Position numbers and translations under genes: made by a program. Of a stretch of 40,884 nt of DNA, positions 9,621 to 40,056 are shown one piece after another (position 1 is the stretch's first letter; every line of letters begins with the position of its first letter). The notes beneath the pieces were generated by a model. The model was given only the letters and a program-made list of their open reading frames with translations. It made no database searches and was not told the origin of the DNA. Source of the stretch: Rhodospirillales bacterium (lineage in GTDB: Bacteria; Pseudomonadota; Alphaproteobacteria; Rhodospirillales; Casp-alpha2); contig JAPKAX010000005.1 of the NCBI GenBank assembly GCA_028825025.1, positions 1 to 40,884 on the forward strand, read 5' to 3'.

Positions 9621-10088
9621 ATGAAAATTACCGACGCGCTTCTAGGTGAACACGGAATTAATTATATCTTATTTTCCCATACCCGCGATACGGTTGATAA
9701 CAGCCATGTCCTTCAAGGTATTTCAAATTCAGTATCTGTGTTAGGGCACGTCCTTATGGATCATGTGCAGGTTGAGGATGACCTGTTATTTCCCAAATTA
9801 GAACCGTACTTAGGTCAAATAGGTCCGCTTGCGGTTATGCGAATGGAACATCATGGTCCTGAGGACCTACTTGAGAAGTCAAAAAATGAAACGGATGTCC
9901 GTACATTAAAGTTTATTCTTACTGAGTTTTTAGATCTGAGGTATTCACATTTCCGTAAAGAGGAAATGTTGTTGTTTTGCATGGCGCAGCAAATTCTGGA
10001 CAAACAGAAACTGATTGAGTTAGGCCAACAATGGGCAGATAGCCGAGATGTTACAATTGATGGGCATGGCTGCCTAGGGGCTGCTTAA
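9621..10088 (+). CDS. Hemerythrin-like HHE domain protein
   Basis: A 155-residue four-helix protein with the expected metal-ligand spacing: LLGEHG near residue 8, HVLMDHVQVEDDLLFP near residue 43-55, MEHHGPEDLL near residue 78 and SHFRKEEMLLF near residue 112. Such domains carry a di-iron site and bind oxygen or nitric oxide, or protect iron proteins. AAGGGA lies about 8 bases before the ATG. It stands alone between lipA and the OsmC remnant and breaks the usual lpd to lipA adjacency. Precise role unknown. Confidence 0.82.
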   Translation: MKITDALLGEHGINYILFSHTRDTVDNSHVLQGISNSVSVLGHVLMDHVQVEDDLLFPKLEPYLGQIGPLAVMRMEHHGPEDLLEKSKNETDVRTLKFILTEFLDLRYSHFRKEEMLLFCMAQQILDKQKLIELGQQWADSRDVTIDGHGCLGAA

Positions 10089-10117
10089 CTAACGAGTCCT
10101 GAATACTACCCCTTTAA

Positions 10118-10434
10118 TTAAGCATTTATTTGAATCTCGCTGGTGATTGTTTTGTGAGCCGGACAGCGTTCTGCGATTTCAAATATTTATTAGCGTTCTT
10201 CTGGGGTTAAGTCACCGTAATAGAAATTTCGGCCTGAATTTGATCTATCATGCCGGTTTCTGCCTCGTACTGTTCACAATCTCCTGCGTGTATTTTATCA
10301 TGACTTAAACGAACTTTAGTGTGTTCTAATTTGTAGCCTTTGCGTTCTGCGTATATGTGCATGGTCATCGATTTACATGCCCTAAGAGCGGCCAACAGCA
10401 AATAATGCGTAGTTGGTCCGCCATCATCGCCGCC
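10118..10434 (-). pseudogene. OsmC family protein remnant A (5' truncated, frameshifted)
   Basis: The minus strand reads GGDDGGPTTHYLLLAALRACKSMTMHIYAERKG and onward, a clear OsmC/Ohr-family core including the redox Cys of ALRACKSM. An in-frame TAA immediately precedes GGDDGG, and the first third of the gene is missing. The ORF-track protein stops at AEISITVT. In the next frame the sequence continues as GDLTPEER, then two adjacent stops (TAATAA), then IFEIAERCPAHKTITSEIQINA, which is the normal OsmC C-terminus. So there are at least three lesions: a lost 5' end, one frameshift and stops. OsmC proteins reduce organic hydroperoxides; this copy cannot. Confidence 0.88.
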
Positions 10435-10446
10435 TTATTTAGGAGT

Positions 10447-11850
10447 TTACATGTGAATGACACGGCCATAGGCGTCGAGCACTGATTCGTGCATCATTTC
10501 TGACAAGGTTGGATGTGGGAATACCGTGTGCATTAACTCTTCTTCTGTGGTTTCAAGGCCCATGGCGACTATAAAACCTTGGATTAGTTCAGTAACTTCA
10601 TGCCCAACCATATGCGCGCCTAACAATTGGCCAGTTTTTGCGTCAAATATGGTTTTGACCATGCCGTCGGCTTCACCCAAAGCAATGGCTTTGCCATTAC
10701 CAATGAACGGGAAGCGACCAATATTGACTATTATCCCCTGCTCTTTCGCTTTGGCTTCGGTCAAACCAACGCTGGCAACTTGTGGATGGCAAAAGGTGCA
10801 ACCAGGAATTTGGCTTTTATCTATAGGGTGCACATTTGGCAACCCAGCAATCTTCTCGATACAAATAACGCCTTCATGTTCAGCTTTATGGGCCAACATG
10901 GGCGGGCCAGCCACGTCCCCAATCGCATAAACGCCGGGCTCATCGGTGCGCGAATATTCGTCTGCTATAATGCAGCCTCGGTCCGTTTTGACTTTAGTTG
11001 ATTCTAACCCAATGCCCTCAATGTTACCAACAACGCCTACGGCTGAAATAACCCGATCTACGGTAATTTTGTGAATTTCACCGTTTTCATCTTCAACGGT
11101 GCAAGTGACAGAGTCCGCGGCTTTATCAAGCTTAGTCACTTTGGCTGAGGTCATTATTTTCATGCCATGCTTTTCAAGCTGCTTGCGCGCCAGTTCCGAT
11201 ATCTCTTCATCTTCAACCGGCATCACTTGTTTCATCACTTCAACAACCGTCACATCAGAACCTAAGGTATTGAAAAAGCTTGCAAATTCAATCCCAATTG
11301 CACCCGATCCAATGACCAACAAAGATTTTGGCATGGTGTTAGGGACCAACGCATCAAAGTAGCTCCAAACCAATTTACCATCAGCTTCAAGGCCCGGAAG
11401 GGCGCGCGGACGGGCACCGGTGGCGACAATGATGTGTTTGCCTGTAAGTGCAGGCAACGCTTTGCCGTCTTTTCTAACACTGACTTTGCCCGGGCCGTTA
11501 AGTTTGGCTTCACCGTCAATCACGGTAACTTTATTTTTCTTTAACAAATGCGCCACGCCGCCGGTTAGTTGTTTGGAAACACCGCGCGAACGATCAACGA
11601 CTTTTTGCAAATCAAATTCGATACCGGATGCAGATAACCCATAATCACTGGCGTGCTTCATGTAGTTATAAATTTCAGCGGATCGGAGCAACGCCTTTGT
11701 AGGAATACAGCCCCAATTCAAACAAATGCCACCGATGTGCTTTTTTTCTATAACGCAAGTTTTCATGCCCAACTGAGCAGCCCGAATAGCGGTTACGTAC
11801 CCGCCGGGGCCTGCACCAATGATTACAACGTCAAAATTTGTATCTGCCAT
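10447..11850 (-). CDS. lpd: Dihydrolipoyl dehydrogenase (E3)
   Basis: The 467-residue flavoprotein has the FAD motif GAGPGGYVTAIRAAQLG near residue 12, the redox disulfide CLNWGCIPTK, the NAD-binding GSGAIGIEFASFF and the C-terminal catalytic FPHPTLSEMMHE. It reoxidises dihydrolipoyl groups of the pyruvate dehydrogenase complex encoded upstream. The ORF track gives a 516-residue protein from 11997, but the extra 49 residues are the decayed tail of a cupin gene reading into lpd in frame. The genuine start is the ATG of MADTNFDVVIIGAG at 11850, which gives family length. Order pdhA-pdhB-pdhC-lpd is kept, with the cupin remnant between pdhC and lpd. Confidence 0.96.
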   Translation of the reverse strand: MADTNFDVVIIGAGPGGYVTAIRAAQLGMKTCVIEKKHIGGICLNWGCIPTKALLRSAEIYNYMKHASDYGLSASGIEFDLQKVVDRSRGVSKQLTGGVAHLLKKNKVTVIDGEAKLNGPGKVSVRKDGKALPALTGKHIIVATGARPRALPGLEADGKLVWSYFDALVPNTMPKSLLVIGSGAIGIEFASFFNTLGSDVTVVEVMKQVMPVEDEEISELARKQLEKHGMKIMTSAKVTKLDKAADSVTCTVEDENGEIHKITVDRVISAVGVVGNIEGIGLESTKVKTDRGCIIADEYSRTDEPGVYAIGDVAGPPMLAHKAEHEGVICIEKIAGLPNVHPIDKSQIPGCTFCHPQVASVGLTEAKAKEQGIIVNIGRFPFIGNGKAIALGEADGMVKTIFDAKTGQLLGAHMVGHEVTELIQGFIVAMGLETTEEELMHTVFPHPTLSEMMHESVLDAYGRVIHM

Positions 11851-12215
11851 TTTTTGTATCCGTAAAAGTGTTGCGCGGGTGAGTTTATTTGCTTCGGTAT
11901 CGTCTGTATAGGTCATGCCCTGTTTTTCAAATAAAATAGCCTGACATTCAGTTGGTGCGACGGGTTTATGCTCGACGACATAGGGAACAACGATCATTCC
12001 GCCTTTACCTATATGGATAATTTTGTCTCAAAAATGCATTTAGAAAGCTCCATCAATAACGAAAACATCTCGTCTTCATCGTCGTGTTTGTACCAAACAA
12101 ATTTGCCTTCAAGCTTTAGGACTTTTATATCATAATTATCAACGGTGCTAACCAATGCCGTAAATCAGAGCTGTTCTTCGGCGCTTTGTTTTTCAGCAAT
12201 GTTAATCTTGTCCAT
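11851..12215 (-). pseudogene. Cupin-domain protein remnant between pdhC and lpd
   Basis: From the ATG at 12215 the minus strand reads MDKINIAEKQSAEEQL, then TGA, and in the same frame FTALVSTVDNYDIKVLKLEGKFVWYKHDDEDEMFSLLMEL. KHDDEDEMF is the metal-binding cupin motif 1 of small mannose-6-phosphate-isomerase-like cupins. After a further stop and frame change it continues as MIVVPYVVEHKPVAPTECQAILFE, the cupin motif 2 region, and then runs without a stop into the lpd start. At least one nonsense change and one or more frameshifts are present. Family members are about 110-120 residues, matching the 365-base span. Function of the parent is unknown. Confidence 0.85.
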
Positions 12216-12230
12216 ATTGGTATACCTGAC

Positions 12231-13535
12231 TTAAAGCATCAACTGCATGGGATCTTCCAAAATCGTCTTTAAGTCTTTCATCATAGCCGCTGCTGGTGCG
12301 CCATCGATGCACCGGTGATCAACAGCCAACGTCAGCGACATTACGGTTGCGATGGCTAATGCTCCGTCTTTAACAACCGGGCGCTGTTCACCCGCACCAA
12401 CGGATAAAATCCCACCTTGCGGTGGGTTGATGATCGAATTGAACGACTTTACGCCAAACATGCCTAAGTTTGAGATCGTAAATGTGCCGCCTTGGTATTC
12501 TTCTGGCTTCAATTTACCGTCTCGCGCTTTTCTGGCTAACTCTTTGACTTCGCTTGATATTGCCGCCAAACCTTTACCGCCTGCATCCTTAACAACAGGC
12601 GTAATTAATCCGCCTTCAATGGCAACGGCAATGGAAACATCAACGCGGCTGAATTTCAAAATAGCTTCGTCCGTATAAGCCACATTGCAATCTGGATTAC
12701 GTTTCAGGCTTATGGCTACGGCTTTAACAATGAAGTCGTTGACGGATAATTTATAATCCGCACCGTCGCGCTCATTAAGCTGTTTACGAAATACCATTAA
12801 TTCATCCATTTCAACATCGGTTGCGATATTGAAATGTGGGATGTCGCGAGCTGATTCAGTTAGACGTTTTCCAATCATTTTACGCATGTTTGAATGGTTT
12901 GTTGCCTCAAATTCTGGCATTAAACCAAAGATCGGATCATTTGTTGATACCGATGCGGCCGCGGGAGCTGAACTTTGCGCAGCGGCAGGTGCAACCGGTT
13001 GAGCTGTAACTGGAGCTGGAGCAGCAGCAGTGCCTGTTCCAGACGCAATTGCCACTTCAACATCGCTTTTAACAATGCGGCCGTGGGGTCCAGAGCCTGA
13101 AATTTGGCTTAAATCGAGACCATTTTGTTGGGCGATACGTTTTGCCAGTGGGCTTGCGAACAGTCGTTCGCCTGATGCTTGTGCTGAGACAGGTGCGGGT
13201 GCAGCGGCTGCGGGTTGAGCTATAGCAGCAACTTCAACTGGAGCAGCAACGGCAGCCAGGGCTGCTTCAGCTGTTATATCACCAGCGCTTTCGCCTTCTT
13301 CGAGCAATACGGCTATGGGCGTGTTGACCAACACGCCTTCAGTGCCTTCAGCAACTAGAATTCTACCCAATACGCCTTCATCAACGGCTTCAACTTCCAT
13401 TGTTGCTTTATCGGTCTCAATTTCGCATAGGATATCGCCACTTTCCACAACGTCGCCTTCTGATTTCATCCATTTAGCCAAACCGCCTTCGGTCATCGTT
13501 GGCGACAGGGCGGGCATTAAAATTTGTATTGGCAT
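12231..13535 (-). CDS. pdhC: Pyruvate dehydrogenase E2, dihydrolipoamide acetyltransferase
   Basis: The 434-residue protein has one lipoyl domain (about 1-80; lipoyl Lys in [12 protein letters not shown]), an Ala/Pro-rich linker, a peripheral subunit-binding domain (FASPLAKRIAQQNGLDL, about 128-165), a second Ala/Pro linker and the catalytic acyltransferase domain ending in VDHRCIDGAPAA with the active-site His. It transfers acetyl groups from lipoamide to CoA and is the structural core of the complex. Its AAGGGG Shine-Dalgarno lies in the 15-base gap after pdhB. Confidence 0.97.
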   Translation of the reverse strand: MPIQILMPALSPTMTEGGLAKWMKSEGDVVESGDILCEIETDKATMEVEAVDEGVLGRILVAEGTEGVLVNTPIAVLLEEGESAGDITAEAALAAVAAPVEVAAIAQPAAAAPAPVSAQASGERLFASPLAKRIAQQNGLDLSQISGSGPHGRIVKSDVEVAIASGTGTAAAPAPVTAQPVAPAAAQSSAPAAASVSTNDPIFGLMPEFEATNHSNMRKMIGKRLTESARDIPHFNIATDVEMDELMVFRKQLNERDGADYKLSVNDFIVKAVAISLKRNPDCNVAYTDEAILKFSRVDVSIAVAIEGGLITPVVKDAGGKGLAAISSEVKELARKARDGKLKPEEYQGGTFTISNLGMFGVKSFNSIINPPQGGILSVGAGEQRPVVKDGALAIATVMSLTLAVDHRCIDGAPAAAMMKDLKTILEDPMQLML

Positions 13536-13550
13536 TATATATCCCCTTCC

Positions 13551-14927
13551 CTAACGGTAGCAGACGGTTTTTACCGCCTCTACTATTTGTGGCGGCTTTG
13601 GTAAGGCCAATTGTTCTAAATTGGCGGCATATGGCATCGGCACATCTTCGCATGATACGCGGCCAACCGGTGCATCTAAATAATCAAACGCATGTTCCAT
13701 AATTTGCGCCGCTATTTCAGCACCAATTCCACAGGTTGGCCAACTTTCTTCAACGTTGACCAAGCGGTTGGTTTTTTTAACAGAAGTAATCACCGTTTCC
13801 ATATCTAGAGGGCGTAAGGAACGCAGGTTAATAACTTCAGCCTCAATGCCTTCTTTAGATAAGAGCTCTGCCGCTTGCATCGCTAAACCTACCGATATAG
13901 CATAGGCCGTAATGGTGACATCAGATCCAACGCGCTCGATTTTGGCTTTTCCAATAGGGACAACAAAATCGGGATCATCAGGAACATCAAAGGTTTGTCC
14001 GTACATAATCTCGTTTTCGAGGACAATAACCGGGTTGTTGTCACGAATGGCAGCTTTCAACAAACCCTTAGCATCTTCACCCGACCAAGGGGCCACAACT
14101 TTTAAGCCCGGAACATGGGCATACAATGCCGCATAACACTGTGAATGCTGAGCTCCAACGCGGGCTGCTGCACCATTAGCACCACGGAAAACCATCGGAG
14201 CGCTCATTTGCCCACCCGACATATAGCGGGTTTTTGCAGCTGAATTGATGATTTGATCTAGCGCTTGGACGGCAAAATTAAAAGTCATAAACTCAACAAT
14301 CGGGCGCAAACCACCAAAAGCAGCGCCAACGCCAAGTCCAGTAAAACCATGCTCAGTGATTGGCGTATCAATCACACGTTTTTCACCAAATTCGTCTAAT
14401 AAACCTTGTGAAACTTTATAAGCGCCCTGGTATTGTGCAACTTCTTCACCCATCAAAAAAACGCGGTCATCGGTGCGCATTTCTTCGGCCATGGCATCGC
14501 GCAAAGCTTCGCGAACGGTCATATTGGTCCGTGATCCTGTGTATTCAGGTTCAGGCGCGATAGCTGGCTGGCTTGGTGCTGATGCGACTTCTGCAGGAGC
14601 CGGTGTATCGACAACAGGTGCTGATACGGGTTCAACTTTAAGTGCTGGTGCTCCACCAACATTATCGGCAGCGCTGGCGTCTTCACCCTCTTCCAAAATA
14701 ACAGCGATCAAAGCATTCACCAAAACGCCCTCTGTGCCCTCTGGGACCAGAATTTTGCCCATAGTGCCTTCATCAATGGCTTCAACTTCCATGGTCGCTT
14801 TATCGGTTTCGATCTCGCACAAAACGTCACCGCTTTCGATTGCGTCGCCCACTTGTTTGAGCCACTTGGCGATGGTGCCTTCGGTCATGGTCGGCGATAG
14901 CGCCGGCATCAGGACTTGAATGGCCAT
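13551..14927 (-). CDS. pdhB: Pyruvate dehydrogenase E1 beta subunit with N-terminal lipoyl domain
   Basis: The 458-residue protein starts with a full lipoyl domain (about 1-80, [14 protein letters not shown]) and an Ala/Pro linker, followed by the E1-beta transketolase pyrimidine and C-terminal domains ([52 protein letters not shown]). A lipoyl domain fused to E1 beta is characteristic of many alphaproteobacteria and gives the complex lipoyl groups on both E1 and E2. GAAGAGG lies 7 bases before the ATG. It is the middle gene of pdhA-pdhB-pdhC, 45 bases after pdhA. Confidence 0.97.
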
Positions 14928-14972
14928 ATTATACCTCTTCCCGTTTGGGTCTAAATATTAATCAATTGTAAG

Positions 14973-16013
14973 TTAAGATTCTGCGTAAATATCAGTATAC
15001 AGTTCCAATGGATCCGGCTCTTGGCTTTCCTGTGCAAATTCAGCGGCTGCCGTCACAATGCCTTTGAGCTGTTTATCTAGGTCTTTCAATGAAGCTTCAT
15101 CGGAAATATTTTGAGCAAAAATCCGGTCACGTAACATATCGATAGGGTCTGTTTCTTGACGAACCTTGGCGACTTCCTCTTTCGACCGGTATTTGGCTGG
15201 GTCTGACATCGAATGGCCCCGGTACCTGTAGGTTTTCATTTCCAGAATAAACGGCCCTTTTCCGGAACGGCACCACTCATTGGCTTCTTCACCCGCTGCC
15301 CTAACAGCTACAACATCCATACCGTCGACTTGTTTGCCTGGGATGTTAAACGAGTCGCCACGTTTATATAAATCAATTACAGCTGATGCCCGCTCGATCG
15401 ATGTGCCCATGCCGTACCTGTTGTTTTCAATAACATAAACAATAGGTAGTTTCCAAAGCGATGCCATGTTGAACGCTTCATAAATTTGACCTTGGTTGAT
15501 TGCTCCATCACCGCAGTAAGCGTGGTTTACGCCGCCATCTTCTTTGTATTTATGGGCGAAGGCTAAGCCTGTACCCAATGGCATTTGTGCACCAACAATA
15601 CCGTGCCCACCAAAAAAGTTCTTTTCGCGGCTGAACATATGCATCGAGCCGCCCTTGCCTTTTGAATAACCACCCCGACGACCCGTCAATTCAGCCATTA
15701 CGCCTTTGGGGTCCATATCATAAGCAATCATGTGGCCGTGGTCGCGGTAACTGGTGATGACCGTATCTTGTTTTTTCGATGCGGCCTTCATACCAACAAC
15801 AACGGCTTCCTGGCCAATGTAAAGGTGGCAAAAACCACCAATCAGGCCCATTCCATAAAGTTGCCCGGCTTTTTCTTCGAAGCGGCGAATGAGCAGCATT
15901 TGACGATAGAACTCTAATAGTTCTTCAGGAGATGCATCATTACTTTTTTTAGGTTTTGACGTGGCAGATTTTGAGGTGGTTTTTTTTGTTTCAGATTTTG
16001 GTGCGCGTGCCAT
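14973..16013 (-). CDS. pdhA: Pyruvate dehydrogenase E1 alpha subunit
   Basis: The 346-residue protein has a Lys/Ser-rich basic N-terminus (about 1-28), then the E1-alpha fold. The thiamine diphosphate motif is GDGAINQGQIYEAFNMA through IENNRYGMGT, and the phosphorylation-loop-like YRGHSMSDPAKYRSKEE follows. With PdhB it decarboxylates pyruvate and acetylates lipoyl groups. AAGGGATGATCC before the ATG is a good ribosome site. It is the first gene of the pdh group; a roughly 200-base AT-rich leader with an inverted repeat lies upstream. Confidence 0.97.
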   Translation of the reverse strand: MARAPKSETKKTTSKSATSKPKKSNDASPEELLEFYRQMLLIRRFEEKAGQLYGMGLIGGFCHLYIGQEAVVVGMKAASKKQDTVITSYRDHGHMIAYDMDPKGVMAELTGRRGGYSKGKGGSMHMFSREKNFFGGHGIVGAQMPLGTGLAFAHKYKEDGGVNHAYCGDGAINQGQIYEAFNMASLWKLPIVYVIENNRYGMGTSIERASAVIDLYKRGDSFNIPGKQVDGMDVVAVRAAGEEANEWCRSGKGPFILEMKTYRYRGHSMSDPAKYRSKEEVAKVRQETDPIDMLRDRIFAQNISDEASLKDLDKQLKGIVTAAAEFAQESQEPDPLELYTDIYAES

Positions 16014-16134
16014 GGATCATCCCTTGATCGGTTGCAAACTGTGTTGCTTGTTTTATCAATTTAATCGACAAGGATAATCAATTCAACAATTTATCGGCCT
16101 ATTAAATGGTTAAAAGTGCATGTTTATGAAATAA

Positions 16135-16158
16135 TTAACATTTTTTTGGTTAATTAAC
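16135..16158. promoter_or_regulatory. Inverted repeat in the pdhA upstream region
   Basis: TTAAC and GTTAA face each other across 9 bases, and the right half is part of the 10-base palindrome GTTAATTAAC. The site lies about 120 bases upstream of the pdhA ATG in AT-rich DNA, so it could be an operator or part of the promoter. This is inference only; AT-rich palindromes are common. Confidence 0.25.
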
Positions 16159-16214: not shown

Positions 16215-16490
16215 TCATCGAGATAGTTTATCCAAGGCCATAAACACCCAGATTGGACCTAAGTAATCTTTTAGATTTATCCGGTTAGGTAATAAATCTT
16301 TTGTTGATTGTTGCCATGCATCTTTGGCTTCGATGGCCGACCAGTAAGATATTTTTACATGGTTTTCATCTGCATCAATATCAGATGTGAAACCTAAAAA
16401 GGATGCGCGCAGAATTGCTGCTGAAACCAAAGTAGCTATGGCTTTTGAATACAGCCCAGCGTCCCCGCCTTCCTCAATAGGATGGCGAAG
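16215..16490 (-). pseudogene. Antibiotic biosynthesis monooxygenase (ABM)-like remnant
   Basis: The minus strand carries EEGGDAGLYSKAIATLVSAAILRASFLGFTSD and HVKISYWSAIEAKDAWQQSTKDLL, which resembles the ferredoxin-like ABM domain (compare PGFLGLETTW and VTVSYWADMDSEKAW in the neighbouring ORF). There is no good start codon: the ORF-track version begins at a TTG inside the domain, and recognisable sequence extends upstream of it. I read it as a decayed second copy of the adjacent gene, but lesions cannot be pinned exactly. Family function is unspecific: small monooxygenase or heme-degrading-like folds. Confidence 0.5.
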
Positions 16491-16507
16491 AACGCGGCGT
16501 TTTTAAA

Positions 16508-16957
16508 TTACTGAACGGCTTCATGGCCCAGCAACTCGGCAATCATTGGAAATGCACTGAAAACAAGCGCTCCAATGGACGCTGACATTGAGCTTTCGGG
16601 GGTCGCCCTGATACCTGAGCATAATTTTTTGAGTGATCCAATTTTACAATTAACTAAGGAAACACGAATAGCGCAAGTTTCTTTCAAAGCTTGCCCACTA
16701 AATTTTTCACGAATCTGATTATCGCCTTTGTGTTCCCAAGCTTTCTCTGAATCCATATCAGCCCAATAAGAAACAGTTACCCACTTCCCTTGTTTGTTCC
16801 ACGTCGTCTCGAGTCCTAAAAAACCCGGTTGATGTGGTGCAATAGAGACCATTTCATCGGTCGGTGATATTTCATCGTCAAACGTTTTGATGTTTTCTCC
16901 GTCATTTATCATTGCTGCATAAAACGGTGGTATTAATTTTTCTACTAAACTAGCCAT
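16508..16957 (-). CDS. ABM-domain-like protein downstream of ftsB
   Basis: A 149-residue ORF with an ABM-like segment around residues 38-101 (MVSIAPHQPGFLGLETTW, WVTVSYWADMDSEKAWEHKGDN, IRVSLVN). The remaining C-terminus, about 45 residues ending FPMIAELLGHEAVQ, does not fit the domain, so a late frameshift is possible. Its ATG overlaps the ftsB stop as TAATG on the minus strand, implying translational coupling. The function is unknown; family members often act as small oxygenases or stand-alone dimeric folds. Confidence 0.6.
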   Translation of the reverse strand: MASLVEKLIPPFYAAMINDGENIKTFDDEISPTDEMVSIAPHQPGFLGLETTWNKQGKWVTVSYWADMDSEKAWEHKGDNQIREKFSGQALKETCAIRVSLVNCKIGSLKKLCSGIRATPESSMSASIGALVFSAFPMIAELLGHEAVQ

Positions 16958-20663: not shown

Positions 20664-20665
20664 TA

Positions 20666-22393
<1,728 letters not shown>

Positions 22394-22925: not shown

Positions 22926-23774
22926 GTGGCGTTTAAAATTGAACCGTTAACTGGCCCAATGGGGGCGTTGGTTTGGGGCCTTGATACTTCACGTGCAACC
23001 CAATTCAGAAGAATTTCAAATTATCGAAAGAGCAATGCTCAACCATATCGCCATTGTCATACCTGATTTAGATCAAAATGTGACTTGGTTACGGGACTTA
23101 TGCCGACAGTTTGGACCGTTGGTGCCACATGTTCTTGATCAATTTAATTACCCAGAATCGTTTGAAATTTCAATCATCGCACGTCAAAATGGAACGGCTA
23201 ATTCGAGGAAAACAGCCATTCCAACCATAGCCTTTTGGTGTCCAGACTTAAACTATGAATGAAACCCATCAGATACAATTTTTTGTATTCAACGCAACTT
23301 TCAAGACAAGGCGATACGATGATTACGAATATGTATATAGCGAATGACAGCTTACCCAATGAGACAAAGGCCCGCATCGAAAGATCAACAACAACACATC
23401 TATGGGGCTGGAATACGGGAGGCGGCACCTCAACGCTCAATACAGGGCACAATCGACGCACCGTGATGTTATTCACACTGTAGTGCGGGTATAGCACAGA
23501 AAGGGGCGCAATGTACTTTATGTTGACCAAATGTATACGGTGAAAATAAATGGTATGAGCAAAAATGAAAGCGATATGTTAATAGAACATTTATGTAAAC
23601 ACGCGCTTAGACCAGAATTCCATTAACGTCATAAATGGGGCGCTATAGAGACTGGTTGGTGATGATAATCGGATATCAAAGCATTGCGCTGTTAATGATT
23701 TTACGGAACCGCGCAAGATGTTTCGGGTTATTGTTGGTTGCACTGAAAAGTTACAAAATAATATTTCAATTTAA
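22926..23774 (+). pseudogene. TauD/TfdA-type 2-oxoglutarate dioxygenase, multiply broken
   Basis: A GTG start at 22926 has GGAGG five bases upstream. The translated pieces line up as one dioxygenase across three frames: VAFKIEPLTGPMGALVWGLD; NSEEFQIIERAMLNHIAIVIPDLDQN; AIPTIAFWCPDLNYE (normally HxD; here Cys replaces His); MKPIRYNFLYSTQLSRQGDTMITNMY; KARIERSTTTHLWGWNTGGG; DVIHTVVRV-stop; NVLYVDQMYTVKINGMSKNESDMLIEHL; LRPEFH-stop; and DDNRISKHCAVNDFTEPRKMFRVIVGCTE. I count at least four frame changes plus TAG at 23492 and TAA at 23624. The 849-base span equals a normal family member of about 280 residues. It is not expressed as a working enzyme. Confidence 0.92.
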
Positions 23775-23784
23775 GGATACTAAC

Positions 23785-24270
23785 ATGCGCTTAAAAACAT
23801 CCCTACCCCTTGATAAGGCCTCCGTTATTGTCGATGAAGCTTTACGCCTAGCCCGACAAGAAAAGATGTTGCCACAAACGGTTGTTGTGCTTGATACGGG
23901 TGGCAAAATAATTGCTGTCAAAAGCGAAGATGGATCTGGGCTCATTCGCTTAGGTATTGCATTGGGTAAGGCTTGGGGGGCGCTTGGGATGGGAATTTCT
24001 AGCCGCTTGATCATGGAACGCTTAGGCGGCCGTCCTTCATTCTTGGGAGCCTTAGCAAACACTGCCGAAGGTAAATTGATACCTGTTCCTGGCGGCGTTC
24101 TTGTCGATGACAGTGATGGGTTTACAATTGGTGCTGTAGGCATTAGCGGCGATACATCCGAAAAAGATGAATATTGCGCTGTTGGCGGCATTAAATTAGC
24201 AGGGTATGCCTCGGAACCGGCAGAGGTTGATCCCAACTGGGAAAGCTCTAATTTATCTGGCACAAAATAA
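23785..24270 (+). CDS. GlcG/HbpS-like heme-degrading-domain protein (DUF336)
   Basis: A 161-residue protein starting MRLKTSLPLDKASVIVDEAL. It shows the family pattern VVVLDTGGKIIAVKSEDGSG, IALGKAWGALGMG and the end IPVPGGVLVDDSDGFTIGAVGISGDTSEKDEYCA. The ORF track begins at 23635, but those 50 residues come from the tail of the TauD pseudogene in another frame. AAGGA lies 7 bases before the ATG at 23785, which settles the start. The role is unclear: homologues sit beside glycolate oxidase, propanediol or aromatic-degradation genes and some bind heme. It follows the dioxygenase remnant by 10 bases and probably shared its operon. Confidence 0.85.
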   Translation: MRLKTSLPLDKASVIVDEALRLARQEKMLPQTVVVLDTGGKIIAVKSEDGSGLIRLGIALGKAWGALGMGISSRLIMERLGGRPSFLGALANTAEGKLIPVPGGVLVDDSDGFTIGAVGISGDTSEKDEYCAVGGIKLAGYASEPAEVDPNWESSNLSGTK

Positions 24271-24394: not shown

Positions 24395-25514
24395 GTGTCG
24401 ACGACAGAATTTAAAATCCCAAACCGTTGGAATAATGCTGCTATTGTTTGTTCATTAACCGTTCTTGCGGTTTCTGAACTCACGTATTTGTTATTTGGCT
24501 TATAAATGGCCGCTGTTTTTGGTGCAATTTTATATTTTGGCGCTGTCAGTTTGTTAGCCCCATTAATTCAGCGTGCTGCCCGCAGAAATCCGATCATCAC
24601 GGAACAAGATGAGCGCCGGGCTAAAATTCGCGAACAACGACATATTTTTGGGCTTTTATGTGGATTTTCGTGGATAATTACGTGGAGACTAGTAACGATT
24701 ACACAAGCAGTTCTGTTATCCGCGGTTCCCGGTGTTGATCATTTGACTGTGCTTGTATTAGGCATATAAAATGCAGTGAGTATAATACTGATTGGGCGTG
24801 CTGAAGAATGGTTTTGGTTGCTACACATTATGTCTTCACGGCCCGCTAGAGTTTTGCCTTTTTGGAAATGACCGGTGTTAAATTTGGCTTGTTTCTGCTG
24901 TACTTTGATCTGTTCTACTTATGTAGTTGTTTATTTATCAAACGTTTCGATAGTGTTCACATTAATGCTCGTTGCACCTATTTTGATCGTTGGTTGGGTT
25001 TTTGTTCAAAGCTTCAAAGGGCATATACTTGAGGGAATGACAACAACTTGATCCGTTCTCATTGACGTATTTACAGTGTCGGCTCGACCCTTGGCGCATA
25101 TTTCATATGCATTGGGAATTGCTGAGTTTATCGGGCAAGCGGCCGCTGATTTAGCGCCTGTTGAATGGATCGATGAAAATCTAAATTTAAAACAAATTAA
25201 GGCGTGGATATTCCTAGCCAGTATTCCGTTAATTATTAACATATGCCGACAAATAGCCTTGTCGCTGCTTGTTTTTTTAAGTGCTGTTATGAATGAACTC
25301 CTAACCTTGCCTGCTGAACCAAGCCACATTGCCTTTGCATTGGGTGCTGTGTGGGTATTAAGCATAATAGTATCACCGAATGCTTCGGCTGCATTGCGAA
25401 TTGCAGGTGTGTCGGGTTTCCGCCTACAACACTAACTTGGCTTTGGAACGGCATTTATGTTTTGTCTTATTTTGTCGTATTCTGTGGGGTTTTCTATGTT
25501 ATATCACTTTGATT
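24395..25514 (+). pseudogene. Multi-spanning membrane protein of unknown family, with in-frame stops
   Basis: One forward frame from GTG at 24395 (AAGGA upstream) encodes a hydrophobic protein interrupted by TAA at 24503, TAA at 24767, TGA at 24869 and TGA at 25049. Sequence on both sides is protein-like: IVCSLTVLAVSELTYLLFGL before the first stop, then the cytosolic loop ITEQDERRAKIREQRHIFGLLCGFSWI, then VVVYLSNVSIVFTLMLVAPIL and AWIFLASIPLIINICR. Near 25420 the frame shifts by one and continues LTWLWNGIYVLSYFVVFCGVF. The ORFs at 24506 and 25076 are fragments of it. It would be about 370 residues with several membrane helices. I do not recognise the family; EQRHIFGLL could help a search. Confidence 0.75.
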
Positions 25515-32942: not shown

Positions 32943-34181
32943 TTATGCGCTGCGGCGTCTTGATTTAAGTTGACCCATTAAAAGCCATACAGCGATCGAC
33001 ATGTTAAGTAAGTTCCATGCAATACCATTTAAGAATGCTGCTTGATAAGAGCCGGTGAGGTCAAATATTAATCCTGACAACCAACCGCCTAAGGCCATAC
33101 CACCAACCGTCGCCATCAGAACTAAGCTCACCCGCGCCCCTGCTTCTTTAGCTGGCATGTATTCGCGTACAATCAACGCATAACTGGGCACAATGCCACC
33201 TTGTGCGAGGCCAAAAAAGGCAGAGACAACGTAAAGCGAGGCCAATCCATCGAAAGGAATATAAAACAACAGGGCCATGCATTGCAGTACTGAGCCAATA
33301 ATCAGGGTCCATACGCCACCGATTTTGTCACCAATCATGCCTGAAACCAATCGGCTAACAATACCAAAGCCGAGCATTAACGATAGCATTTCAGCGCCCC
33401 GGGTAACGCCATAACCCAAATCACCACAATAAGCGACGATATGAACTTGTGGCATCGACATGGCAACGCAGCAGGCAATACCCGCAATAACTAAAATGGT
33501 TTGCAAGGCACGCGGGGAAATGTTTAAGCGGAACCTATTACTGTGGCCATCACTTTGGCCTGCAACAAAATTCAAATTAGGCCGCCTGCGCAATAAAAAA
33601 GCCAATGGGACCATGGTACAAATACAAAACACACCAACAGCTATGTATGAGGTGCGCCATCCATAGTATTCGATACCATAGGTTAAAAGTGGTGGCCAAA
33701 TGGTGCCAGATACGTAATTTCCGCTAGCGACAATAGCAATTGCAATGCCGCGCCGTTTTACGAACCAGTGGGTGATATCGGCAACCAAAGGCGCAAAGGA
33801 TGCTGAACTGCCTAACATTCCAATACAAACCGCTTGAACAGCAATGAATTGCCATAGGCTTGTTGTATATGCAGCAAGAATATAGCCAGAACCCATAATA
33901 AGTGCGCTGAAGAATAAGGGGACAAACACGCCTCTTTTATCGGCCAATCGCCCCATAAAGACACCGCCTGTCGCAAATCCGATCATGGTCGCCATATAGG
34001 GCAATGAAGCATCGGCGCGACTGATATTAAATTCTGCCTCGATGGTTGGTAGAATAACAACAACAGACCACATACCAACGCCACCAATCGTGCTCATAGC
34101 CAATGAAACGACTAAGCGCCACCAAGAATAGGCGCTGTCGGGTTGATCGGGTATTAGATGAGATTGTGTTTGATCTGGCAT
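32943..34181 (-). CDS. Major facilitator superfamily transporter
   Basis: The 412-residue integral membrane protein has twelve predicted helices. The MFS loop signature is GRLADKRGVFVP between helices 2 and 3, with SGMIGDKIGGVW as the matching loop in the second half. It looks like the monocarboxylate/oxalate-formate-like branch (helix 1 region MSTIGGVGMWSVVVILPTIEAEFNISRADASLPYMATMIG). It is transcribed away from the SMP-30/TauD genes; with the EamA gene upstream it may import or export the substrate of that cluster, which is inference. Confidence 0.88.
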   Translation of the reverse strand: MPDQTQSHLIPDQPDSAYSWWRLVVSLAMSTIGGVGMWSVVVILPTIEAEFNISRADASLPYMATMIGFATGGVFMGRLADKRGVFVPLFFSALIMGSGYILAAYTTSLWQFIAVQAVCIGMLGSSASFAPLVADITHWFVKRRGIAIAIVASGNYVSGTIWPPLLTYGIEYYGWRTSYIAVGVFCICTMVPLAFLLRRRPNLNFVAGQSDGHSNRFRLNISPRALQTILVIAGIACCVAMSMPQVHIVAYCGDLGYGVTRGAEMLSLMLGFGIVSRLVSGMIGDKIGGVWTLIIGSVLQCMALLFYIPFDGLASLYVVSAFFGLAQGGIVPSYALIVREYMPAKEAGARVSLVLMATVGGMALGGWLSGLIFDLTGSYQAAFLNGIAWNLLNMSIAVWLLMGQLKSRRRSA

Positions 34182-34262
34182 GTATTGAAATTCAATGCGT
34201 TAGAGTTAATGTGACGTGTACTCCCGTTTAAGGAGTGGGTCAAAGTTTACTCGGCTTAGAAG

Positions 34263-35177
34263 TTAAGTTTTCGTTTTGCCGCGCTCTGAAAGTAAAATGC
34301 CACCAAGGACCAATACCAGTGCCATACCGTGGAATAATTTGAACGGCTCGTTCAAAATTAAAACGGATAACCCAGAAGCAAAGATGGGGGCCAAGTTGAT
34401 CATCACCCCTGCCCTGCCCGGCCCAATCAGCTTAACCGCATGAATGAACGACAACTGAGCTAAAAAGGATGGGAATAATGTTATTAACCCGGCATAAATC
34501 CAGCCTTTTGGGCTTGGAGCCAAAAATTGACCTGAATAGACTTCAATCGCAACCATTGGCAAGGATGCTAAAAATGCAGCTCCAGCCATGACTGTAAACA
34601 TCCCCATTGCTGAAACTTGCGGTCGGTTGCGCAATCCAACCGTATATGCGGCATAAAAAGAACAGGCGACGATCATTATCAGATCACCGATATTGAATGT
34701 AAGGTTTCTTAAATTTGCTATGTCACCACCTGAAGCGACGATCACAACGCCCACAAATGCTACAGAAACCCCAGCCGCTTGCATCAACGTAACGGGAGTG
34801 CGGAAAGCAACAAAGGCACCAAAAAATACAAATATTGGGATGGAGCCTTGTAAAATCCCAATGTTTACGCCGCTTGTTGAATGCGATGCGACATAAAACA
34901 AAGCGTTAAAACTGGCGTATCCAACTATACCCATTATCGAGAAAAATAATAAATGTTTGCGTAATTGCGGCCAATCGCGCCGTACGGGTTTATTGAAAAA
35001 AACCAAAAGGAGAACTGCAACACCAAACCAGCGAATAGATACAATTGCCATTGGCGAAATTTCGCCAACTATTAATTTCCCAAATACAGCGTTGAAGCCC
35101 CAACAAAGTGTTGTGAAGACAAGCATAACGTAAGCCAACCATGTTTTTTCTAAAATCGATACAGAAGGTGACGTCAC
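34263..35177 (-). CDS. EamA/DMT-family transporter
   Basis: A 304-residue protein with ten predicted membrane helices and two EamA repeats (LVFTTLCWGFNAVFGKLIVGEISPMAIVSIRWFGVAVLLL in the first, YAGLITLFPSFLAQLSFIHAVKLIGPGRAGVMINLAPIFASGL in the second). Such proteins export or import small metabolites. The start is GTG, with AAGGA about 9 bases upstream. It is divergent from the SMP-30 gene, with about 150 bases between. Confidence 0.9.
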   Translation of the reverse strand: MTSPSVSILEKTWLAYVMLVFTTLCWGFNAVFGKLIVGEISPMAIVSIRWFGVAVLLLVFFNKPVRRDWPQLRKHLLFFSIMGIVGYASFNALFYVASHSTSGVNIGILQGSIPIFVFFGAFVAFRTPVTLMQAAGVSVAFVGVVIVASGGDIANLRNLTFNIGDLIMIVACSFYAAYTVGLRNRPQVSAMGMFTVMAGAAFLASLPMVAIEVYSGQFLAPSPKGWIYAGLITLFPSFLAQLSFIHAVKLIGPGRAGVMINLAPIFASGLSVLILNEPFKLFHGMALVLVLGGILLSERGKTKT

Positions 35178-35325
35178 AACCGGTAATCCTTGTTAAGCGC
35201 AACACAGCCAAGTGTTGAAAGTTAATAAGGTGCTTCTTCTATACCTGTAAAGAACAAAGCCTTTCTTGCCCCAACGAATTCTGTCGAATAGGATATTTGT
35301 TAACATAAATTCCATTGGGAAATTG

Positions 35326-36297
35326 ATGATGACAACTGATACCCCTAAAAGCGCTGGATGGCGAGATTACCCCCGCTACCCAGACACTGCTATTGAAGCC
35401 TTGGACGATCGGTTCAATAAATATATGATTTTTAGTGCTGCTGTTGAGCGCTTGTATACAGGTGCTCGGTGGTCAGAAGGCCCTGTGTGGTTTGGTGATG
35501 GGCGTTATTTGCTGTGGAGCGACATTCCGAACAATCGAATTCTTAAATGGGAAGAAGAAACCGAAAACGTAAGCGTATATCGCAAGCCAACTAATTTTGG
35601 AAATGGCCATACCAGAGACCGCGTTGGACGCTTGATTACGTGCGAGCATGGCGGGCGTGTCACGCGCACAGAATATGATGGAATGATTACTGTCATAATG
35701 GACAGCTGGCAAGGAAAACCGCTCAATTCACCCAATGACGTTGTTGTTAAGTCCGATGGATCTATTTGGTTCACGGACCCACCCTTTGGTCTTTTAGGGA
35801 ATTACGAAGGTAATAAACGCGAGCAAGAATTACCGGCGGCAACGTACCGGGTCGATGGAGAAACGCTTAAAGCAACGATGGTTGCTGACAATGTGTTGGG
35901 GCCAAATGGATTGGCGTTTTCACCCGATGAAAGCATACTTTATATCGTCGAATCGCGGGGTGAGCCGTTCCGTAAAATTGTTGTCTTTGATGTCTCAGAA
36001 AATGGTCGTCAAATCGCGAACAAGCGGGTTTTTATTGATGCGGGTTCGGGCGGTACACCGGATGGGTTTCGGGTCGATATTGACGGTAATTTGTGGTGTG
36101 GTTGGGGTATGGGCAGCGATGATTTAGATGGGGTTTTGGTTTTTGCATCTGATGGAGCTAAAATTGGCCGTATTCGTTTGCCAGAACGATGTGCGAATGT
36201 ATGTTTTGGCGGGTTGAAGCGCAATCGTTTGTTTATGGCGGCCAGCCAATCCATGTATTCTTTATATGTGAACACCCAAGGCGTCGCAGGAGGTTGA
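35326..36297 (+). CDS. SMP-30/gluconolactonase family protein
   Basis: About 323 residues from the ATG at 35326 (MMTTDTPKSAGWRDYPRYPD), with GGGA five bases before it; the track start at 35266 adds a non-conserved leader. It is a six-bladed beta-propeller lactonase with the metal ligands of the family: Glu in RWSEGPVWF, Asn in LNSPNDVVV, NGLAFSPDES and Asp in GTPDGFRVD. It should open a sugar-acid or other lactone ring. The start of the tauD-like gene follows one base after its stop, with AGGAGGT inside its own last codons, so the two are an operon. Confidence 0.9.
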   Translation: MMTTDTPKSAGWRDYPRYPDTAIEALDDRFNKYMIFSAAVERLYTGARWSEGPVWFGDGRYLLWSDIPNNRILKWEEETENVSVYRKPTNFGNGHTRDRVGRLITCEHGGRVTRTEYDGMITVIMDSWQGKPLNSPNDVVVKSDGSIWFTDPPFGLLGNYEGNKREQELPAATYRVDGETLKATMVADNVLGPNGLAFSPDESILYIVESRGEPFRKIVVFDVSENGRQIANKRVFIDAGSGGTPDGFRVDIDGNLWCGWGMGSDDLDGVLVFASDGAKIGRIRLPERCANVCFGGLKRNRLFMAASQSMYSLYVNTQGVAGG

Positions 36298-36298
36298 T

Positions 36299-37141
36299 AT
36301 GACCGTAGAGATGCATCCACTAAATCCTTATTTCGGTGCAGATATCACAGGAATAGATGTCTCCAAGGGTGTTGATGACGCTGAGTTTTCTCAGATTTGG
36401 GACAATTTTAACGAATACGGTCTGATCTCTCTTCGTGGACAACATTTATCAGTCGACGATCAAGTTAAATTAGGCCGCCGGTTTGGAGATGTGCAAATCC
36501 ATGTCATGAACCAATATCACATCAGTGGTCACCCGGAAGTGTATTATTTATCGAATTTAGATGAAGACGGAAACCCCAACGGTAAACACCCGGATAAAGG
36601 AACAATGTTTTGGCACACTGATGGCTCGTGGCGTGATCGGCCTGGGTTGGCGACGATTATGGTCGCAGAAATTATCCCGGATGAAGGGGGTGAAACTCAC
36701 TTTTATTGCACTGAAGCCGGATATGCAGCGTTAGATGACGATACAAAAACCAAGGTTCAGGGGTTGCGGGTTACCCATAATTTGGATTTCTCGCGCAATC
36801 GCCGCCATGGTGAAGAGCCGATGACTGAGGCGCAAAAGAAAGCGGCACCCCCTGTGACCCACCCCATGGTCCGAACCCACCCTGTAACAGGACGTAAAAG
36901 CCTTTTTCTTGGTGATCATGCCGAATGCATTGAGGGTATGGATTACGAAGAAGGCCGGAAATTAATTGAAGAGTTAAACGCCCAAATGGTCCGTCCTGAA
37001 TTTGTTTATGCGCACAAATACCGTCCGGGTGACATTATTGCTTGGGATAACCGGCGTACATTGCATAAATCGACCCCCTACGATGTGGCAACGGAACGCA
37101 GGGTCATGCGCAGAACAACCATTTTAGGTGATCCACCCTAA
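36299..37141 (+). CDS. TauD/TfdA family Fe(II)/2-oxoglutarate dioxygenase
   Basis: The intact 280-residue protein has the iron-binding facial triad: His and Asp in MFWHTDGSWRDRP and the distal His in TLHKSTPYD, followed by the 2-oxoglutarate-binding Arg region RRVMRRTTILG. The family hydroxylates substrates such as taurine, 2,4-D, sulfate esters or other organic acids; the substrate is unknown. AGGAGGT gives a strong ribosome site. It is a distant relative, not a recent duplicate, of the broken dioxygenase at 22926. Its stop overlaps the next gene as TAATG. Confidence 0.9.
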   Translation: MTVEMHPLNPYFGADITGIDVSKGVDDAEFSQIWDNFNEYGLISLRGQHLSVDDQVKLGRRFGDVQIHVMNQYHISGHPEVYYLSNLDEDGNPNGKHPDKGTMFWHTDGSWRDRPGLATIMVAEIIPDEGGETHFYCTEAGYAALDDDTKTKVQGLRVTHNLDFSRNRRHGEEPMTEAQKKAAPPVTHPMVRTHPVTGRKSLFLGDHAECIEGMDYEEGRKLIEELNAQMVRPEFVYAHKYRPGDIIAWDNRRTLHKSTPYDVATERRVMRRTTILGDPP

Positions 37142-37601
37142 TGAGCACCGATTACATAACTGTTACTGATGCCCCAGATGCGGCACCGTGGCTGATTATG
37201 GTTCATGGTATAATCCAAGACCACCGGGTGTTTTCGTCTCAGGTTGTGGCCTTTAAGGAACAATACCGTATTTTGTTGATCGATTTACCCGGGCATGGGT
37301 TATCAACGTATGTTCCCGGTCCATATGGGCATGTGGAAATGATGGAACACGTACGCCGTATTTGGGATCAAGCCGCAATTGGGCCTGCGCATTTTGGGCA
37401 ACGCATACGGGTACGGCTGTTGGGTTGTTACTGGCTGTCCAAGAGCCAAAGCGCTTTAGGTCATTTATTTTAGAAGGTGCCGTGATCTCTGGCTACGATA
37501 TGCCATATGTTAACGGAACATTAGGGCAAGCATGCGTCGTCGCGCGCTCCAAAGGACCGAAAACAGCTAAGGGCCATGGGTCCCTAATTTATCCCACATA
37601 A
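37141..37601 (+). pseudogene. Alpha/beta hydrolase, frameshifted and C-terminally truncated
   Basis: The ATG overlaps the dioxygenase stop. The first frame encodes the hydrolase N-terminus (WLIMVHGIIQDHRVF, YRILLIDLPGHGLS), then slips at about position 37390 near a TTTT run. The next frame carries on as ATHTGTAVGLLLAVQEPKRFRSFILEGAVI and ends at a TAA at 37599. The rest of the roughly 250-residue fold is missing. The nucleophile elbow reads ATHTG, with His where Ser is usual, so the parent may have been an unusual member or already altered. In life it would have been the third gene of the SMP-30/TauD operon. Confidence 0.85.
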
Positions 37602-37648
37602 ATTTAAGGGCGTGTGACATTCCAAATCGTGGTAGTATCTGTTCCTGA

Positions 37649-38022
37649 TTACTGGATAACTTTCAATACGACGCAGAATTTTGGTAAGTCCTCTTTAACT
37701 TTTGCAAAGTCGTCATCGCTGGCATCTGTTTTCAAATCAATAATCAGATTTATCGCCGGAAGAGGAACTTCGATTTCTTTTCAAGCATAACGCCCTGGCG
37801 ATCATAGGTTTCGTCGATTGCAACGTGCATATCACTAATTTCGTTTCCATGCTTGTGGGCAATCACATTGGTGCAACCGATTAATGCAGTCATTAAGGTT
37901 TCTGTTGGTGATGGACCTTTGTTGGTTCCGCCACACTCTTCTGGCTCATCAATGATGACTGGTAGTCCATGAACATCTATATCTGTCCGCGAATGAGACG
38001 TTCCCGTCCCTTCCATCTTCAT
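37649..38022 (-). pseudogene. OsmC family protein remnant B (frameshifted)
   Basis: The ORF track gives a 90-residue protein (TSHSRTDIDVHG, EECGGTNKGPSPTETLMTALIGCTNVIAHK, MHVAIDETYDRQGVMLEK), which is the OsmC core with its Cys in ALIGCTN. It ends in an off-frame tail KSKFLFRR. One base missing in GAAAAGAAATC would restore EIEVPLPAINLIIDLKTDASDDDFAKVKEDLPKFCVVLKVIQ, the normal C-terminal region. Upstream of its first Met the frame continues ELKARIVM with no start, so the 5' end is also damaged. It is a different subfamily from remnant A. Confidence 0.88.
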
Positions 38023-38073
38023 TACAATGCGTGCTTTCAGTTCAAAATTACCATTTCTAATCCTTATTAATTA

Positions 38074-38480
38074 TCAAACTTCACAAACTTCATCAAACCT
38101 AAACTTCGGTAGATGTTGGAACAGTGCTGTTGCAAAGCTACAGCCTGAATTGCATAAGACGTTTGAGCGTAAATGCGTTCCTGCAAAAAAGGCTTCGTCC
38201 ATTTTGGCTACATTGCCTGAATTTAGCGCTGGCATAAGGTCCTTTTTGGCCTCGGCTGAGTTTAAAAAGAGGATCCGTACCGGACTGCCTTGGTGCCGGT
38301 TGGGCCCGATTTCATTATAAAGTACAGTTCATTTAACTTCTTAATTGGAACTGGTACTTCTTTGAAAAAATGATAAAAATGTGCTTTTCAAAACAACAAA
38401 TCCGTTAAGTCACCGTCTAAGCATTGAAGGCGTTTTTTTGCTTTGAGCACTTCGGCTTGAGATTGTTCCACAATATCCAT
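38074..38480 (-). pseudogene. Unrecognised broken gene between FAH gene and OsmC remnant B
   Basis: Starting at the ATG at 38480, one minus frame reads MDIVEQSQAEVLKAKKRLQC and DGDLTDLLF, then TGA, then KAHFYHFFKEVPVPIKKLNEL and YFIMKSGPTGTKAVRYGSSF before a stop. Another frame continues NSAEAKKDLMPALNSGNVAKMDEAFFAGTHLRS to a stop at 38074. Total length suggests a former protein of about 135 residues. The reading is protein-like, but I do not recognise the family. It lies downstream of the fumarylacetoacetate-hydrolase gene on the same strand and was probably in its operon. Confidence 0.45.
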
Positions 38481-38486
38481 ATTGAT

Positions 38487-39353
38487 CTACTTTTCGTCTT
38501 CAATTGTGTTAGTAAGAATGCCAAGGCCATCGACTTCGACCTCAATGACATCGCCCGGTTTCATGAAGACGGGCGGCGTACGCGCATAACCAACACCAGC
38601 TGGCGTTCCAGAAATAATGATATCGCCCGGCTCTAGCGTCATGCACTCAGTTAAGCGATAAATCAGGTTGTGGATTGTAAATACCAAATCATCTGTATTG
38701 GCATCTTGCATGATTTGACCGTTCAAGCGGCTTTGAATACGCAACCCTTTGGCACCTTCAGGTACTTCATCGGATGTTACGATTTCAGGGCCAAACGGGC
38801 CTGTATTGTCGAAGTTCTTACCGATTGTCCATTGTGATGACTTGCGCTGGTAATCGCGTAATGTACCCTCATTAAAGAGCGAGTATCCGGCAATCATTGA
38901 ACCAGCATCGGCTTCTGCAATGTGTTTTGCTTTCTTGCCAATAACAACAACCAGTTCAGCTTCAAAGTCCAAACTATCTGAGCATTTTGGCCTAACAATT
39001 GGCTCGCCTTGAGCAACCAGTGTATTGGGCCCACGGTAAAAGATTTCTGGGTACGTTGGTGTTGCTGCGCCGCCTTCTGCTGCGTGTGCCGCATAGTTGC
39101 GGCCAATGCAGATGATTTTACCGGGGCGCGGGATTGGTGGCATTAGCTTAACCGAACTCATATCGACCTTGGAATCATCGCCAGCGCTATCTCCACACGC
39201 TTTGATTTTTGCCAACATACTGTCGCCGCCTTCAAGTATTCCAATCATATCACTTGGAAGCTCGGGTGCTGCTTTGCTGAGATCGACAACTTGGTTACCT
39301 AAGCGCACGCCAACAGCGGGGCCTGATTGTCCTTGAAATGTAATTAACCGCAT
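38487..39353 (-). CDS. Fumarylacetoacetate hydrolase (FAH) family protein
   Basis: The 288-residue protein has an N-terminal FAH_N-like part (MRLITFQGQSGPAVGVRLGNQVVDLS) and the catalytic fold: GKIICIGRNYAAHAAEGG, the metal ligands in LDFEAELVVVIGKKAKHI, the loop GYSLFNEGTLRDYQ, GKNFDNTGPFGPEIV and IISGTPAGVGYARTPPVFMKPGD. The family hydrolyses or decarboxylates acylpyruvates and related dicarbonyl compounds, often the last step of aromatic or sugar-lactone catabolism. AGGA lies about 11 bases before the ATG. Substrate unknown. Confidence 0.9.
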   Translation of the reverse strand: MRLITFQGQSGPAVGVRLGNQVVDLSKAAPELPSDMIGILEGGDSMLAKIKACGDSAGDDSKVDMSSVKLMPPIPRPGKIICIGRNYAAHAAEGGAATPTYPEIFYRGPNTLVAQGEPIVRPKCSDSLDFEAELVVVIGKKAKHIAEADAGSMIAGYSLFNEGTLRDYQRKSSQWTIGKNFDNTGPFGPEIVTSDEVPEGAKGLRIQSRLNGQIMQDANTDDLVFTIHNLIYRLTECMTLEPGDIIISGTPAGVGYARTPPVFMKPGDVIEVEVDGLGILTNTIEDEK

Positions 39354-39590
39354 ATAATTTTTTCCTATGCTAATTTAGTCTGCAAATATGATGTAAAAAT
39401 TATCCATAAAATCCAACTTTTTGCAAAAATTTCGAAATTATTATCGATTAGTCTGTAAATTCATTACAATATCTACACGGATATTTATTTGAAACAATGG
39501 TTTCATAATTAAGGGTGTAAAAAATGGTAGGCGAATGGATTGTCTTGGTAAGAAAAAGTTGCAGATGAGTGGTCTTAGGGCGTGTTGGGG

Positions 39591-39923
39591 ATGCAGTTGT
39601 ATGTAGTGACAACAACGCCTGCAGGAGACATGGATGCCATTTTGGCATTAATGGGCCTGCATTTAGCATTTCAAAAGAAGCTTCAATAACAAGGTGTGCT
39701 ATTTGCCACAGGGCCTTTTGTAGATTATGACAAAAAAGTATAGTCAGGAGCAGTAATGGTTATACTGCGCGCAGATTCTGTTGAGCATGCCCGTGAAATT
39801 GTAGCCGAAGACCCAATGCACGTTGCCGGTGACCAAACATTCCACGTGCGCCCATGGCTTATGAACGAAGGATCAATGACTTTTCGGGTGACGTATTCTG
39901 ATGGTGGGCGAGAGATAAGCTAA
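39591..39923 (+). pseudogene. YCII-domain protein with two in-frame stops
   Basis: A single frame from ATG at 39591 translates as MQLYVVTTTPAGDMDAILALM, LHLAFQKKLQ-stop (TAA at 39687), GVLFATGPFVDYDKKV-stop (TAG at 39741), then VMVILRADSVEHAREIVAEDPMHVAG, QTFHVRPWLMNEG and MTFRVTYSDGGREIS, ending at TAA 39921. This is a complete 110-residue YCII-like protein with no frameshift. The stops are of two different kinds, so readthrough of one recoded codon is unlikely. It precedes the DehI-like gene by about 130 bases on the same strand. Confidence 0.92.
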
Positions 39924-40056
39924 CACCTTTAGGCATGATTATAGATATGCGGCCTCGGGTCAGGACCCTAGACGTCTAAGTATAATGCTGACAAAATCAC
40001 AGGGGAGATGACGGTCACTGATTTCATTGATTATCTATACTTACTTAGGATGCAAT

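Follow-up and report, generated by a model that had tools for sequence, protein, structure and literature searches.

Gene-by-gene pseudogenisation of accessory genes in two sister alphaproteobacterial species

Introduction

Does the mixture of broken and full-length genes in this stretch of DNA record real gene loss, and, if it does, on what was selection relaxed: single genes, a catabolic repertoire, or a genome in the course of reduction? An earlier note made from the sequence of this stretch had counted eight or nine broken genes among core genes of full length, had argued that the lesions were not simple sequencing errors, and had proposed that selection is relaxed on a catabolic repertoire, as in early genome reduction. 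The reading that we favor, at a probability of roughly 0.88, is ordinary pseudogenisation, proceeding gene by gene as purifying selection relaxes within a single clade of an uncultured Rhodospirillales-type genus; the clade consists of the species that carries this stretch and a close sister.

Genomes and comparative methods

The window is the whole stretch of DNA analysed, contig C269 with its 40,884 bases. It belongs to G000, a fragmented metagenome assembly (3.45-Mb genome, 402 contigs, 96% complete). Three genomes of the same genus were compared with it: G001 (4.6 Mb), G002 (2.8 Mb, 89% complete), and G003 (5.9 Mb). The window's species has its near sister in G002, which shows 92–93% DNA identity to the window in most matched stretches; G001 and G003, with approximately 64–80% DNA identity where matched, were used as outgroups. 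The window was searched with the reading frames of G003 and G001, and remnants were aligned to a reference so that frameshifts and stops could be counted; the references were intact same-genus homologues, with a genome of the same family supplying that for the cupin. Decay across the genomes was sampled by family searches in which stops within matches were counted. ORF coverage based on codon usage was dropped as a measure of coding density, being crude and GC-biased, and GC figures alone were kept.

Nine remnants among intact housekeeping genes

For all nine remnants a related genome supplied a matching gene, and every remnant carried frameshifts, in-frame stops, or large deletions (Table 1). 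For six references, the real HSPs scored 59–295 bits against 23 bits for the best shuffle (200 shuffles per segment); since the shuffled segments never came near the real score, these matches lie far above chance. Alignment to intact homologues confirmed the lesions and settled the count at nine, and, as far as sequence can tell, all nine are genuine pseudogenes. We discounted the idea that the stops are recoded codons, since each of the three stop codons is represented and is accompanied by frameshifts and deletions.

The gene identities were assigned with differing precision. What the earlier note had listed as an unknown gene is a malonic semialdehyde reductase. The G003 homologue of the malonic semialdehyde reductase-like gene scored 257 bits against NF003768 (cut-off 152), that of the PcaD-like hydrolase scored under the PcaD cut-off, and the intact G003 copy of the membrane protein had no Pfam or NCBIfam match. 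A Pfam search with the cupin fragment alone gave no match, and its identity was established through intact relatives from other genera.

Table 1. Positions and condition of the features discussed, in window coordinates
Feature	Positions	Strand	Condition or evidence
Hemerythrin	9621–10088		open, full length in G000
Hydrolase-OsmC fusion, OsmC end only	10112–10443	-	dead; 1 frameshift, 4 stops, aa 1–298 of 410 gone
Cupin gene	11857–12215	-	dead; 1 frameshift, 3 stops
Second ABM-like copy	16311–16509	-	decayed; 2 inferred frameshifts; 24/63 identical to G003 ABM protein
ABM-like gene, 149 aa	16508–16957	-	intact; full-length match to G003 and G002
TauD-family dioxygenase	22926–23744	+	dead; 4 frameshifts, 4 stops
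HbpS	23635–24270		open, full length in G000
Membrane protein, family without a name	24521–25509	+	dead; 1 frameshift, 3 stops, aa 1–154 of 487 gone
Segment of raised divergence from G002	35250–39500	.	about 4.3 kb; identity and dS
SMP-30/gluconolactonase-like gene (SGL)	35266–36297	+	intact; PF08450; dN/dS 0.07
Second TauD (TauD2)	36299–37141	+	intact; PF02668; dN/dS 0.05
PcaD-like alpha/beta hydrolase	37141–37556	+	dead; 1 frameshift, aa 140–272 gone
OsmC-family gene	37616–38049	-	dead; 1 frameshift, 1 stop
Malonic semialdehyde reductase-like gene	38077–38480	-	dead; 1 frameshift, 1 stop, 76-aa deletion
Fumarylacetoacetate hydrolase-family gene (FAAH)	38487–39353	-	intact; PF01557; dN/dS 0.08
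YCII-domain gene	39540–39920	+	dead; 4 stops

Housekeeping genes were full length wherever a G003 or G001 orthologue was compared, as had been claimed for the core genes. When genes of the window were divided into accessory and housekeeping classes, which are our own and were assigned post hoc, 9 of 23 accessory genes were dead compared with 0 of 17 housekeeping genes (Fisher p = 0.005).

Among the nine remnants, the case is weakest for the second ABM-like copy. The earlier note had listed a single ABM-like remnant; this holds for the second copy, but the main ABM-like gene is intact: it shares 57% identity with a G003 protein of 149 aa and has a dN/dS of 0.38 between G000 and G002.

Independent lesions in the sister species

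The lesions could be metagenome artefacts in genes that are intact in the organism, a concern raised by the 402 contigs of the fragmented assembly. Against sequencing or assembly error, several remnants carry at least three lesions together with large deletions, lesions are absent from housekeeping genes of equal length, and in the sister, whose genome was assembled independently, other lesions have killed the same genes; we therefore regard this explanation as highly improbable. Most of the genes were intact in G001 and G003 and were broken or gone in G002, mostly by mutations different from those in the window, which argues for real gene loss, in agreement with the earlier view that the lesions are not simple errors.

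In G002, the hydrolase-OsmC fusion carried five frameshifts, two stops, and a 29-residue deletion; the PcaD-like hydrolase had four frameshifts and three stops, none of them in common with the window copy; the malonic semialdehyde reductase had one frameshift and three stops and had lost one end; YCII had lost its 5' half and contained one stop different from those in the window; and the cupin had one stop within the covered part. The second OsmC gene (window positions 37616–38049) was not found at the matching position. Hemerythrin, the end of Abhydrolase_10, and a TPR gene were also dead in G002. G002 kept longer dead copies of the hydrolase-OsmC fusion and the TPR gene, of which most or all is deleted in the window. 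The region at 22.9–25.5 kb of the window had no match in G002, so the TauD and membrane-protein remnants are documented by the window copy.

Lesions were compared over the overlapping parts of the hydrolase-OsmC fusion, the PcaD-like hydrolase, the reductase, YCII, and the cupin, plus an enoyl-CoA hydratase outside the window (G000:C339 and G002:C326). These six genes contained 16 lesions in G000 and 15 in G002, of which one was common to both: a TGA at residue 131 of the enoyl-CoA hydratase. Because both species share this stop, the enoyl-CoA hydratase was probably dead before they split. The other compared genes were inactivated after the split, or their first lesion lay in a part since deleted in one species. 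TauD remnants on C65 and C203 and an OsmC remnant on C124 gave no meaningful alignment to same-genus references; the two TauD remnants were scored as broken from stops in the family search.

The outgroups also bear on whether the remnants reflect turnover or redundancy of single genes in the absence of genome reduction, with acquired accessory genes being gained, going unused, and being lost, as in any bacterium. Hemerythrin and Abhydrolase_10 would fit such a course, as neither was found at the matching locus in G003 or G001 and both are dead in G002, and intact TauD and OsmC genes persist elsewhere in G000. Since those intact family members remain, redundancy alone could explain the three remnants that belong to these two families. 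However, the hydrolase-OsmC fusion, TauD, the membrane protein, and the PcaD-like gene were intact at matching places in both outgroups and thus were not recent arrivals. Genes present in G001 and G003 yet absent here could be gains in those genomes.

Selection on decayed and intact genes

In functional bacterial genes dN/dS lies at 0.04–0.2, and in dead genes near 1 (PMC3914690). Pairwise comparison of G000 with G002 put the median of intact genes at 0.11, with very short overlaps left out. The four remnants that were estimated reached 0.47 (hydrolase-OsmC), 0.21 (PcaD-like), 0.43 (reductase), and 0.98 (YCII), on 67–134 codons each and, for two of the four, within a replaced segment where dS is near saturation. 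The remnants, for which the earlier note had proposed estimating dN/dS, did stand above the intact median. Values lying between the range of live genes and 1 fit selection that acted during part of the divergence.

Intact accessory genes of the window were strongly constrained: in addition to SGL, TauD2, and FAAH (Table 1), values were 0.05 for MFS, 0.10 for AKR, and 0.13 for DMT. Given this constraint in the same window as the remnants, relaxation over the catabolic repertoire is unsupported; selection has been relaxed gene by gene. The earlier proposal thus survives at the level of single genes and is not supported at that of the repertoire, in which SGL, TauD2, FAAH, MFS, and AKR remain intact.

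A divergent segment between 35.25 and 39.5 kb

Identity to G002, mostly 92–96%, fell to approximately 76–86% in a segment near the end of the window, was lower in its decayed middle, and then recovered. dS between G000 and G002 was about 0.2 outside the segment, whereas within it values ranged from 0.5 to 2.0 (0.9–2.0 for SGL, TauD2, and FAAH; 0.5–1.3 for two remnants). A second copy (paralogue) of the segment was sought in G000 and G002 and was not found. The simplest reading is homologous replacement by the allele of a divergent relative in one of the two lineages. Both alleles carry dead copies of the PcaD-like gene and the reductase and live copies of SGL, TauD2, and FAAH.

Decay, genome size, and GC content across the clade

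Family searches identified broken TauD loci in G000 (2) and G002 (2), broken CoA-transferase III (CoA_transf_3) loci in G000 (2) and G002 (1), and broken enoyl-CoA hydratase (ECH_1) loci in G000 (1) and G002 (1), and there were none in any of these families in G001 or G003. Pooled over the three families, 9 of 84 loci were broken in G000 and G002 compared with 0 of 72 in G001 and G003 (Fisher p = 0.004, which is only a guide because the loci were hand-counted and the sisters' orthologous loci lack independence; the pool excludes the SDR family and CoA-transferase fragments at contig ends). In three accessory families, dead genes are thus in excess throughout the clade. The GTP_EFTU matches in the family search were all free of internal stops. 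The absence of broken copies from the outgroups in all three families weighs against simple turnover.

The ECH family was nevertheless more numerous in the clade (16 and 15 matches compared with 10 and 8 in the outgroups), which favors turnover, and CoA-transferases showed no clear shortage; for both reasons, catabolism as a whole is not shrinking in G000 and G002. The greater number of ECH loci also stands against the repertoire-wide relaxation proposed earlier. With the outgroup evidence included, we consider gene-specific turnover without genome reduction an unlikely account of the whole pattern.

Completeness-corrected genome sizes were about 3.6 Mb for G000 and about 3.1 Mb for G002 compared with 4.6 and 6.0 Mb for the outgroups, and the GC content of sampled contigs was 46 and 45% compared with 56 and 52%, a difference whose direction is not polarised. 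Smaller size, lower GC content, and more dead genes than in the two congeners all suit early genome reduction following a change of lifestyle, such as host association or a stable nutrient-poor niche. On the other side, a search for ankyrin genes in G000 and G002 gave no match and no host is known, the CoA-pathway families show no reduction, and, with other genera of the family spanning 1.6–5.5 Mb, a size of 3.6 Mb cannot clearly be called small. Early genome reduction, which the earlier note had suggested, therefore fits the trend in size and GC content and is unproven, and we see the evidence for and against such a lifestyle-driven reduction as evenly balanced.

Under gene-by-gene pseudogenisation, dispensable accessory genes would gain small indels and stops and would then be eroded by deletion. 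The genes losing value would be those of the OsmC type, one TauD, the PcaD-like hydrolase, the malonic semialdehyde reductase, the cupin, YCII, and the membrane protein, with housekeeping genes and still-used catabolic genes remaining under purifying selection. Loss probably started before the split at one or more loci and continued independently in each species. The common ancestor may have changed its habitat or lifestyle in a way that made the lost functions dispensable, and the smaller, lower-GC genomes may be an outcome of this gene loss. A bolder version, which we advance tentatively and rate at somewhat below even odds, is that the two sisters are early in parallel genome reduction, with independent mutations removing the same specific genes from each, even where their alleles are divergent and recombined, the doomed set having been fixed by the ancestor's change of niche and not by chance.

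Relation to known systems

Parallel pseudogenisation is known in relatives that enter a similar niche, such as Salmonella Typhi and Paratyphi A, where the same functions are lost by different mutations. Compared with that pair, the organisms here are uncultured alphaproteobacterial sisters at approximately 93% DNA identity. The recent Sodalis-allied symbiont SOPE, compared with strain HS, is similar in having a genome that is still large but contains deletions, frameshifts, and stops (PMC3914690). In SOPE, however, almost half of the genes are dead, insertion sequences have expanded massively, and the insect host is known (PMC3914690), whereas in the G000/G002 clade about a tenth of the loci are broken in three accessory families, and no host is known.

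The process itself is well known, and the clade is useful as a replicated natural system with outgroups. Two close species, together with outgroups in which the genes are intact, form a natural replicate for identifying which genes are doomed under relaxed selection, and they do so in a lineage from the environment, away from the insect symbionts and pathogens in which this is usually studied. With this clade it can be asked how repeatable the set and order of losses are and how fast dead genes are deleted.

Decay also affects annotation at this locus. The dead cupin sits between pdhC and lpd, and its tail is in frame with lpd; therefore, the first 48 residues of the lpd reading frame are dead cupin, and the start that matches G003 lies at about position 11853. 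Gene calls here can mislead, since lpd is easily extended by these 48 residues.

Decayed and divergent loci

The dead enoyl-CoA hydratase gene, which lies outside the window beside a CoA-transferase gene, shared one TGA between the copies of the two sister species, and this was the only common lesion found. Hemerythrin and the Abhydrolase_10 gene were open in the window and carried stops in the sister species (G002); both were looked for at the corresponding locus in the same-genus outgroups G003 and G001 and found in neither.

Residues 1–48 of the lpd open frame corresponded to the tail of the dead cupin gene upstream, whose stop codon was lost in the window; G002 retained the cupin stop codon, and its frame differed from that of the window.

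Coordinates of the features (L-numbers denote regions beyond the window)
Feature	Location	Remark
Dead enoyl-CoA hydratase	L159 3713-4241; L160 2267-3061	disabled in both sisters
Abhydrolase_10	window 6008-8092	
Hemerythrin	window 9621-10088	
Cupin tail in lpd frame	window 11854-11997	
Inverted repeat	window 22330-22361	pyrG-secG interval
Divergent segment	window 35250-39500	
EAL-cNMP	L077 12522-13757	
DUF3095	L077 15354-16553	
Histidine kinase	L078 7421-9640	
Second FAA hydrolase	L022 14413-15288	

Sequence comparison with G002 revealed a sharp fall in identity and a several-fold rise in dS across the divergent segment, which together indicate allelic replacement in one of the two lineages.

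EAL-cNMP, DUF3095, histidine kinase, and the second FAA hydrolase had matches in regions of both outgroups and none within the window, reflecting either loss in the window's lineage or gain in the outgroups. The inverted-repeat match (about 32 bases), probably a transcription terminator, also had a counterpart in G001.
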